Assembly (NCBI RefSeq): GCF_021390325.1 | Contig: NZ_JAJUWU010000015.1 | Location: 62,001 to 126,000, forward strand | DNA from: Jiella avicenniae | GTDB taxonomy: Bacteria > Pseudomonadota > Alphaproteobacteria > Rhizobiales > Rhizobiaceae | Length of the DNA stretch: 64,000 nucleotides | Direction of reading: 5' to 3' | Shown here: positions 31,748 to 51,162 of the stretch, piece after piece | Layout: each line of letters opens with the position of its first letter | How positions within the stretch are numbered: position 1 is the stretch's first letter | The notes under the pieces: model-generated | Told to the model about the DNA's origin: nothing | The model's input: the letters and a program-made list of their open reading frames with translations, nothing else | Databases searched by the model: none | Translations under genes and position numbers: made by a program

Positions 31748-32032
31748 ATGATCCGGAGCTTTGCCGATTCCGAAACGCAACTGGTCTGGGCAGGCAGGCG
31801 AAGCCGCAAGCTTCCGCCAGACATACAGTCGGTGGCCCTGCGCAAGCTGCGTATGATCAATCAAGCACAGTCTCTGCACGATCTGCGGGTGCCTCCGGGG
31901 AACCATTTGGAAGCGCTCAAAGGCCGTCGAAAGGGCCAGCACAGTATCCGGGTTAATCAGCAGTGGCGGATCTGCTTTAATTGGGAGGATGGAGGACCGA
32001 GTAATGTCGGAATTGTCGACTATCATGACTGA
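31748..32032 (+). CDS. higB: HigB-type RelE-family toxin
   Basis: 94 residues from the ATG at 31748 (MIRSFADSETQLVWAGR). RelE-superfamily ribosome-dependent mRNA interferase. Typical HigB pattern: FADSETQLVW, RKLRMINQAQSLHDLRVPPGNHLEALKGRRKGQHSIRVNQQWRICFNW, and the C-terminal GIVDYHD with its conserved YH. An in-frame ATG six codons earlier is possible, but it would overlap the predicted promoter. It overlaps higA by 29 bases, in the toxin-first order usual for higBA. Confidence 0.93.
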   Translation: MIRSFADSETQLVWAGRRSRKLPPDIQSVALRKLRMINQAQSLHDLRVPPGNHLEALKGRRKGQHSIRVNQQWRICFNWEDGGPSNVGIVDYHD

Positions 32033-32318
32033 ACTTCTGCCGAACCCGCACCCCGGGGAGATCCTGCTGGAAGAATTTTTGCGGCCGATGGGCGTCAGTC
32101 AGAATGCCTTGGCGCGCGCGGTGCACGTCCCGCCGCGGCGGATCAACGAGATCGTCTTGGGCAAGCGATCGATGAGCGCAGACACCGACTTACGTCTTGC
32201 GAAGTACTTCGGCATGTCCGAAGGGTTCTTCCTCGGTCTGCAGGCGGACTACGACCTGATGGAACGCCGGCGAGAGATCGAGGCTGATCTCGAGTCGATC
32301 GAGCCCCGGGCGGCCTGA
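32004..32318 (+). CDS. higA: HigA-type antitoxin
   Basis: 104 residues from the ATG at 32004, selected because GGAGGA sits seven bases before it; an internal ATG at 32025 lacks a ribosome site. XRE-type helix-turn-helix: HPGEILLEEFLRPMGVSQNALARAVHVPPRRINEIVLGKRSMSADTDLRLAKYFGMSEGFFLGLQ is the standard HigA sequence. It neutralises HigB and should bind the palindrome upstream of higB. The C-terminal helical tail is acidic. Confidence 0.95.
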   Translation: MSELSTIMTELLPNPHPGEILLEEFLRPMGVSQNALARAVHVPPRRINEIVLGKRSMSADTDLRLAKYFGMSEGFFLGLQADYDLMERRREIEADLESIEPRAA

Positions 32319-48357: not shown

Positions 48358-49176
48358 TCACAGCAGCAGCAGGCGATCCTTCAGAGGGCTGAACGTCATG
48401 CGATGGAGCGGCGAGGGGCCGTGGACCTCGATGGCGGCGAGATGGGCCGCCGTGCCGTATCCCATATGCCGGGAAAAGCCGTAGCCGGGAAACGCCAGAC
48501 AAGCCCGGCGCATCATCCGGTCGCGCACCACTTTGGCGACGATCGAGGCGGCGGCGATCGACAGGCAGGTAGCGTCCCCGCCGACCACCGCCGCGGCCTG
48601 GCAGGCGCAGCCGGGCGGCACGTCGCGGCCGTCGACCAGCACGTATTGCGGCGAAACGCCGAGGGCGGCGACCGCCCGGCGCATGGCGATCAGCGTCGCG
48701 CCGCGAATGTTGAAGCGGTCGATCTCGGCGGCGCTGGCCGAGGCTGAGGCAACGATCGCCCTCGCGACGATCTCGGCGAACAGCTCTTCCCTTCGTTCGG
48801 CGGTGAGCGCCTTCGAATCGTCGAGGCCGTCGGGGATGTCCTCGGGGTCGAGGATGACGGCGGCGGCCGTCACCGGCCCCGCGAGCGGTCCGCGCCCCGC
48901 CTCGTCGACGCCGGCGACGAAGCGCCGGCCGAGTGCGATGAGCTGGCGCTCGCGGGAAAAGTCCGGGCCGGGCCGGGGTACGGAGCCCTTGTCGCCGGGC
49001 GCCCGACCTGCCGGCTTCCTGGCCGTCCGGGGCCTTTCGGTGCCGGACTTCGCGGCGGCGGGCTTTGCTGCGCGGGTCTTGGCGGCGGTTCGCGTGTTCG
49101 CGCCGCGCCGGCCCGTCGCCCGCTGGGCGTCCGCATCGTCGGTGAGGGCAGGAGAATCGGAGGAATGCGCGGTCAT
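48358..49176 (-). CDS. rnhB: ribonuclease HII
   Basis: 272 residues from the ATG at 49176 ([14 protein letters not shown]); a start 13 codons upstream is possible. RNase HII cuts at ribonucleotides in DNA. The catalytic core begins at about residue 85 with [23 protein letters not shown] and continues with [23 protein letters not shown] and [17 protein letters not shown]. The first 80 residues are a low-complexity Ala/Arg/Lys/Thr-rich extension, basic and probably disordered, which may bind nucleic acid. The C-terminus ends in [15 protein letters not shown]. Confidence 0.96.
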
Positions 49177-49345
49177 CGTGCGGCGGAGACTCGCGCATCC
49201 TCCGATCCCATGCAAGGTCCACTTTCGCGCGCCGGGCGCCTCGGGGGAAGCGCCGGGTTCGGGTGGACCCGTCGGCGGCTGGAACGCCGCCGGTCCGCCG
49301 GCCGGGGATGATGCGGCAGCCCCTGCCGGCTTGACTTGACGTCTT

Positions 49346-50503: not shown

Positions 50504-50562
50504 GTTTCCGCCTCCTGGCACGAGCCTCGGATACCGTGAACAAACAGCTAACGCCAAAGCGC

Positions 50563-50577
50563 GAACAATACAAGAAC
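50563..50577. promoter_or_regulatory. alphaproteobacterial LexA (SOS) box
   Basis: GAAC (50563-50566), seven bases, GAAC (50574-50577): an exact match to the direct-repeat LexA operator of alphaproteobacteria. It lies between divergent genes, 60 bp before the radical SAM start and 52 bp before the glycosyltransferase-like start, so it could control one or both. Confidence 0.75.
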
Positions 50578-50628: not shown

Positions 50629-51162
50629 ATGCTGAGCGTTTTCATCGACTGCGGGCCGGACGACCACAAGCTGGCCTCGACACTGGGAAGTCTCGTGCCG
50701 GGGGCGGTCGAGGGGATCGTCCGCGAGGTCGTGCTGGTCGACCGCGGCATGGGGGCGGATGCGCGCAAGGTCGCCGAGCACACCGGCTGCCGGGTCATCG
50801 CGCCGGAGGCGTTGCGCGACGCGATCCGGACGGCCAAGGGCGACTGGCTGCTGCTGCTCGAGCCCGGCGCCCGGCTCGTTTCCGGATGGATCCCGGCGGT
50901 GGTCGAGCATGTCGAGCGGGTCCAGGAGGGGCGGGCGAAGATGCCATCGGCCCGGTTTCGCCGGGCGGCGATCGACCGGCCGCGTTTCCTGCAGCGCCTT
51001 CGCGAAATCAGGACGGCGCTGGCGGAAGGGTTCCTGGTCGCGAAGACCCAGGCGATCGGCCTGGCGGGGCTTGGCGCCTCGGTGCCGACGCTCGAGGGCA
51101 TGGCGAGGGGCGTCGCGGTGACGCGGCTCGACGCCGAGATCCGGCCGACCCATCGCGGCTGA
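50629..51162 (+). CDS. glycosyltransferase-like protein
   Basis: 177 residues from the ATG at 50629 (MLSVFIDCGPDDHKLASTLGSLVPGAVEGIVREVVLVDRG). The fold pattern is that of a truncated family 2 glycosyltransferase N-terminal half: a nucleotide-binding start, VVLVDRGMGADARKVAEHTGCRVI and then KGDWLLLLEPGARLVSGW, where the usual DxD is replaced by EPGA. It may therefore be inactive or bind rather than transfer. Longer in-frame starts at 50536 or 50581 exist without ribosome sites. It is divergent from the radical SAM gene across a LexA box. Function unknown. Confidence 0.72.
   Translation: MLSVFIDCGPDDHKLASTLGSLVPGAVEGIVREVVLVDRGMGADARKVAEHTGCRVIAPEALRDAIRTAKGDWLLLLEPGARLVSGWIPAVVEHVERVQEGRAKMPSARFRRAAIDRPRFLQRLREIRTALAEGFLVAKTQAIGLAGLGASVPTLEGMARGVAVTRLDAEIRPTHRG

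Follow-up and report, generated by a model that had tools for sequence, protein, structure and literature searches.

A conserved LexA-type box upstream of the PA0069-family radical SAM gene of Jiella avicenniae

The locus and its promoter region

We have studied a region of Jiella avicenniae in which a radical SAM gene and a divergent gene flank a predicted LexA box. The window, which is the whole stretch of DNA analysed, has 64,000 nucleotides. The features of the locus, ordered by coordinate, are the following:

48358–49215, minus strand: rnhB (RNase HII), the next gene downstream; coordinates of the ORF as listed, with a likelier ATG at 49176; NF000595, 238 bits
49346–50503, minus strand: PA0069-family radical SAM gene, 385 aa, with CX3CX2C at residues 104–111; NF033668 (570.1 bits) and PF04055
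50537, minus strand: probable transcription start, the A of TTCAC (TTCAT in the family), from the column profile
50545–50550, minus strand: putative -10 element TAGCTG, degenerate, 17 bp from the -35 element; consensus TAGGAAT in the family column profile
50563–50577, minus strand: predicted LexA operator GTTC-N7-GTTC, exact motif, oriented like the radical SAM gene
50568–50573, minus strand: putative -35 element TTGTAT, inside the operator; consensus TTGCTT in the family column profile
50629–51162, plus strand: divergent glycosyltransferase-like gene, 177 aa, named from the annotation of its S. meliloti counterpart; a neighbour, unlikely to be what the box mainly controls

The plus strand at 50563–50577 reads GAACAATACAAGAAC and the minus strand, directed toward the radical SAM gene, reads GTTCTTGTATTGTTC. 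It is a direct repeat GTTC-N7-GTTC, an exact match to the alphaproteobacterial LexA motif as it is given in passages of PMC3323433. The earlier note had placed an exact LexA box at 52–60 bp from two divergent starts. This agrees within a base with our count of 59 bases to the ATG of the radical SAM gene (50503, minus strand) and 51 bases to the divergent ATG (50629, plus strand). The former is the likeliest start of the radical SAM gene, with AGGAGG seven bases ahead of it.

Taken by itself the box is not significant, since the bare motif GAACN7GAAC is found three times in the 64-kb window and 2.22 occurrences (sd 1.57) are expected from shuffled sequences. Its significance is due to its position and conservation. 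The other two exact matches, at 2304–2318 and 32031–32045, have GC-richer spacers and probably arose by chance. A tandem operator that takes in two more GAAC half-sites, at 50538 and 50574, was also considered. Each of them pairs only with one mismatch, and the half-site at 50538 lies 25 bp from the box, unlike the 11-bp repeat, so that we take this arrangement as a coincidence.

When the promoters of the taxonomic family are aligned on the box, a regular architecture is apparent. TTG follows right after the first GTTC (0.99–1.00) and a T precedes the second GTTC (0.97); TAGGAAT starts 27 bases past the beginning of the box (0.77–0.95 per column) and is followed by TTCAT (0.58–0.88). These columns suggest a -35 element TTGCTT placed in the operator, a 17-bp spacer, a -10 element TAGGAA and a transcription start at the A of TTCAT; the leader would then have 34 bases in the window. 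The composite pattern GTTCTTGN3TGTTCN12TAGGAAT occurs once per genome in 52 of the 101 family genomes, and the reversed control has no occurrence among the genomes listed. An exact search does not find this composite of operator and -10 in the genome of the window itself, and a sigma-70 scan of the window calls no promoter at this site.

LexA-type boxes ahead of the gene in different bacterial groups

Of 101 genomes from the taxonomic family to which the window belongs, 95 have the radical SAM gene above the NF033668 cut-off, and 91 of these 95 loci were examined. In 88 of them the 400 bp ahead of the model start contain an exact GTTCN7GTTC, in all cases with a copy oriented as the gene. The farther-upstream DNA of the family loci (130,057 bp) has a single exact box. 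Each of the three loci without an exact box has a site with one mismatch, which is also the case for 17 of 90 family control windows.

In a wider sample of the class, with 142 genomes, almost every genome represents a different family. The gene passes the NF033668 cut-off in 68 of them, and all 68 loci were examined. The exact box appears in 57 of these loci, which stand for approximately one genome per family. Among the 11 loci which lack it, ten have a one-mismatch site, versus 6 of 66 class control windows. These control windows, taken at positions -900 to -500, have no exact box at all, either in the 90 of the family or in the 66 of the class. One class locus (L112) is peculiar, since it is the only one with its single exact box reversed: GAACACAACAAGAAC. 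Among the loci of the same order or family given by a phylum search, 27 of the 28 with the best scores have the box; some of these genomes are shared with the other samples. Named records with GTTCN7GTTC include Paracoccus, Azospirillum, Sphingomonas, Methylobacterium and S. meliloti.

Outside the class other LexA-type motifs replace this box. The phylum sample has 299 genomes, and 39 genomes outside the class, several of them congeners, pass the NF033668 cut-off. The palindrome CTGTN8ACAG is found within 400 bp upstream in 29 of these 39 loci and is absent from the farther upstream DNA of the same loci. The remaining ten consist of one with TTAGN6TACTA and nine with neither motif; one locus has only 196 bp upstream. 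Aeromonas caviae, a gammaproteobacterium and a named record outside the class, also has CTGTN8ACAG. The named records agree in six of seven cases; at the plasmid locus of Legionella adelaidensis the expected box is absent. One locus outside the class (L198) has a box of the form TTAGTAATAATACTA, whose shape is presumably that of the xanthomonad LexA motif; three loci from the same family group (L190, L199 and L222) have none of the boxes sought.

In Actinomycetota we have analysed loci of the Rv2578c family in named species, taking from 590 confirmed matches the 80 best, with no Mycobacterium among them. The motif CGAACN4GTTCG is present with no mismatch in 29 of these best 80 of 590 loci, with one in 29, with two in 14 and with three in 8. 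The 160 control windows have none without mismatches, one with a single mismatch, 22 with two and 137 with three or more. Thus zero or one mismatch is found in 58 of the best 80 of 590 loci and in 1 of 160 control windows. Of these 58 boxes, 53 begin 22–24 bp ahead of the match start. The earlier note had suggested checking whether the box is conserved upstream of PA0069 homologues in Hyphomicrobiales, and had considered that SOS control would extend across phyla if Rv2578c has a LexA site. Conservation of the box and SOS-type boxes in two phyla are borne out by the counts given above for the family, order and class, for the loci outside the class and for the actinobacterial set. Three different LexA-type box sequences ahead of one gene family probably indicate selection for a response to DNA damage. 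Nine phage records have distant matches, none of which covers 80%.

It might be thought that the box arose by chance in an intergenic stretch richer in A/T. The number of exact matches in the window would agree with such an origin, and when the near windows are shuffled once by mononucleotides, exact boxes still appear in 5 of 91 family loci (0 of 68 in the class). Against this stand the regular place and orientation of the box in the family and class loci, its absence from the control windows and the presence of different LexA-type boxes at the same place in other clades. At the level of sequence, conservation thus rules out a chance match, which we consider extremely improbable. Another question is which gene the operator serves, since it might act on the divergent glycosyltransferase-like gene, or on the two genes to the same extent. 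The box is placed 51 bp ahead of the divergent start, and in loci which have this neighbour the distance is often 45–60 bp. However, among the loci without a detected neighbour in the upstream stretch (tblastn, 1e-3), 17 of 17 in the family and 43 of 50 in the class still have the box; with a detected neighbour the figures are 71 of 74 and 14 of 18. The box is therefore associated with the radical SAM gene. Furthermore its orientation is fixed with respect to this gene, and the 30 bp profiled on the side of the neighbour have no strongly conserved element. Control of the divergent gene is disfavoured by these observations, in particular by the loci without neighbour, and appears quite unlikely. 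The divergent protein itself gives no match to NCBIfam (at 0.001) or to Pfam (up to E 1); its positional counterpart on S. meliloti pSymB carries the annotation glycosyltransferase.

The radical SAM enzyme and its likely role

The earlier note had read the protein as a PA0069-type radical SAM enzyme related to spore photoproduct lyase (SPL), and both points hold. It belongs to the curated family NF033668, with 570.1 bits for a cut-off of 360. It falls outside the Rv2578c family (NF038135), where it has 224 bits, under the cut-off of 430. The AlphaFold2 model of the enzyme has a mean pLDDT of 89.3 and a pTM of 0.88, and its best Foldseek match is spore photoproduct lyase (E 7.7e-9). VIA-align comparison with the structures of this enzyme (PDB 4fhc and mutants) gives Z 18.5–19.1 and rmsd 3.2–3.6 over 261–275 residues, with 15–17% identity; the next-best fold is NifB, with Z 14.8. 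The enzyme is thus SPL-like in the fold of its model, and presumably also in having damaged DNA as its target.

Although the fold is similar, the window protein differs from spore photoproduct lyase by its low identity, by its separate curated family and by its cysteines. The cluster cysteines C104, C108 and C111 (CX3CX2C) are present in all 78 aligned sequences, 46 of the PA0069 and 32 of the Rv2578c family. Beyond this triad no cysteine column is fully conserved in these sequences. The fullest other cysteine columns are three different ones: one with 21 of 32 Rv2578c sequences and two with 15 and 11 of 46 PA0069 sequences. In B. subtilis SPL, Cys141 has been proposed as the hydrogen donor, according to passages of PMC9850924. 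For the placement of Cys141 on the model, the profile alignment covers only profile positions 197–235. The absence of a further conserved cysteine suggests that the substrate may differ from that of SPL.

We think it very probable that the box is a functional LexA operator lying over the -35 element ahead of the radical SAM gene, that the gene is induced by damage, and that its SPL-like enzyme acts on DNA lesions, which are probably different from the spore photoproduct. For LexA binding and induction at this locus, as for the promoter elements, we infer from sequence. In the undamaged cell LexA would sit on the box over the -35 and block RNA polymerase. Upon DNA damage, RecA filaments would promote the self-cleavage of LexA and the radical SAM gene would be turned on; the enzyme would then work on damaged DNA, the lesion probably not being the spore photoproduct. 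The regulation and the fold together point to a role in damage, and the enzyme is most likely a damage-induced DNA repair enzyme acting on a lesion without assignment.

A true spore photoproduct lyase, repairing spore photoproduct outside spores, would also have this fold, which is the nearest one solved. The SPL family TIGR03886 is indeed touched weakly by an Rv2578c-type protein (P0001, 20.4 bits) and by the PA0069-type gene of one class genome (about 20 bits), for a cut-off of 437.55. However the window protein has no match to TIGR03886 at E 0.001, and only the triad cysteines are kept throughout the 46 and 32 sequences of the two families, in contrast with the donor proposed for B. subtilis. 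None of the 142 class genomes has a TIGR03886 match over the cut-off, and four have weak matches. Since the B. subtilis control also fails this cut-off, the membership test is a narrow one. On balance we find a true SPL rather unlikely and prefer an SPL-like enzyme for another lesion.

The Rv2578c family is a sister of the PA0069 family: many residues are invariant in both, and it also has SOS-type boxes. It differs in that the loci found are actinobacterial and have their own box, CGAACN4GTTCG, with the placement described above for the best 80 of 590 matches. A literature search, which takes in few subscription journals, gave no paper with both Rv2578c and LexA and none joining PA0069 with radical SAM; neither did it give an assigned reaction for a PA0069-family enzyme. 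We assume that Rv2578c is named in lists of LexA targets in Mycobacterium.

The core idea of LexA control for this kind of gene is already predicted in print. In 2012 passages of PMC3323433 (Sanchez-Alberola) predicted it for splB in alpha- and betaproteobacteria, with a LexA site GTTC-N7-GTTC upstream of an SplB-like gene in the former. These passages name photolyase/SplB and no finer family; the gene studied here is in NF033668 and is probably the same as their splB. They report that this control was not observed in gammaproteobacteria, whereas we have found CTGTN8ACAG in Aeromonas caviae. The prediction is extended to Bacteroidetes in excerpts of PMC8565304, and in excerpts of PMC3765255 gene neighbourhoods of the SOS type are linked with radical SAM proteins similar to SplB. 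A gene of the Streptomyces venezuelae LexA regulon, vnz_31145, is similar to ours in being a radical SAM gene with a LexA ChIP peak and induction by mitomycin C (fold change 19.97), as given in part of PMC9380542. It differs by its phylum and its LexA motif, and it would be a member of the Rv2578c family. The excerpts of a survey of DNA repair in Caulobacter (PMC1839093) mention neither splB nor spore photoproduct, and those of a Paracoccus genome paper (PMC3925955), an SOS review (PMC9578287) and a Pseudomonas transcriptome (PMC5435343) have no decisive statement on the control of this gene by the SOS system. New in the present work are the NF033668 assignment, the promoter architecture, the counts and the other LexA-type boxes in further lineages. 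The label photolyase/SplB may be misleading for a PA0069-family gene. A repair role of this family is directly testable, and a biochemical question lies behind its predicted regulation.

The rnhB gene downstream and other SOS boxes of the genome

The rnhB gene shares the strand of the radical SAM gene and is located downstream of it in 29 of 30 family loci, 25 of 28 loci of the order sample and 14 of 30 class loci looked at. It is the next gene in the family, and in some other loci it lies 500–1,400 bp away. An SOS operon including rnhB was considered for this genome and rejected: the conserved rnhB start is usually 100–200 bp past the stop of the radical SAM gene, behind a conserved, promoter-like block. 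Because rnhB has such a block of its own we do not claim an operon here. In six alphaproteobacterial loci (L097, L099, L109, L114, L115 and L116) the first ATG is found 0–27 bp past the radical SAM stop, so that RNase HII could be SOS-induced in them. A broader proposal, which we offer tentatively and which is possible rather than probable, is that the PA0069 and Rv2578c families form one widespread SOS-controlled SPL-like branch. It would reverse an unassigned lesion by a route of hydrogen transfer different from the cysteine of SPL, and rnhB would be co-induced in the alphaproteobacterial lineages where it is less than 30 bp away.

The beginning of rnhB has a conserved inverted repeat GGAGAATC...GATTCTCC with GANTC in each arm, located at about 49148–49217 of the window. 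It spans the presumed rnhB promoter and the first codons, and a loose pattern of it fits 24 of 30 family loci (L001–L030); in the window copy the first arm is degenerate. We take these GANTC sites to be of the CcrM type. They gave the idea that ccrM might follow rnhB, which was rejected, as no ORF of at least 150 aa with DPPY appears in six downstream stretches. Five of these six stretches past rnhB have ORFs facing the opposite way, which read as ATP synthase b subunits by ORF reading alone.

In the whole genome the bare pattern is found 151 times, versus 51 in the reversed control. With an A/T-rich spacer end, GTTCN4WWTGTTC, there are 12 sites in 5.17 Mb, versus 2 in the reversed control. 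Near these 12 sites we find the radical SAM gene, ORF pieces of uvrA and dnaE, and an imuA-like gene. The starts of the last three are 121, 252 and 28 bp from their sites, respectively; they are called from partial or short ORFs under the curated cut-offs (50.8 bits for the imuA-like gene, versus 150). The genome has its own lexA (TIGR00498, 188 bits for two pieces in one frame, cut-off 110.95), and a matching box, GAACACAACTAGAAC, lies upstream of it. An exact N7 repeat is missing at the recA locus.

Two further observations concern other contigs. At 83451–83465 of contig C46 (L235) the box GTTCTTGAAATGTTC is placed 25 bp ahead of a DUF3072 gene (PF11272), which is a possible further LexA target. 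Contig C23, of 26 kb (L230, L231 and L245), has T-rich boxes GTTCTCATTTTGTTC and GTTCTTTTTTTGTTC about 1.5 kb apart. It also has a second, weak lexA-like match of 64 bits, below the cut-off; perhaps these boxes and the lexA-like match belong to a mobile element that has an SOS control of its own.
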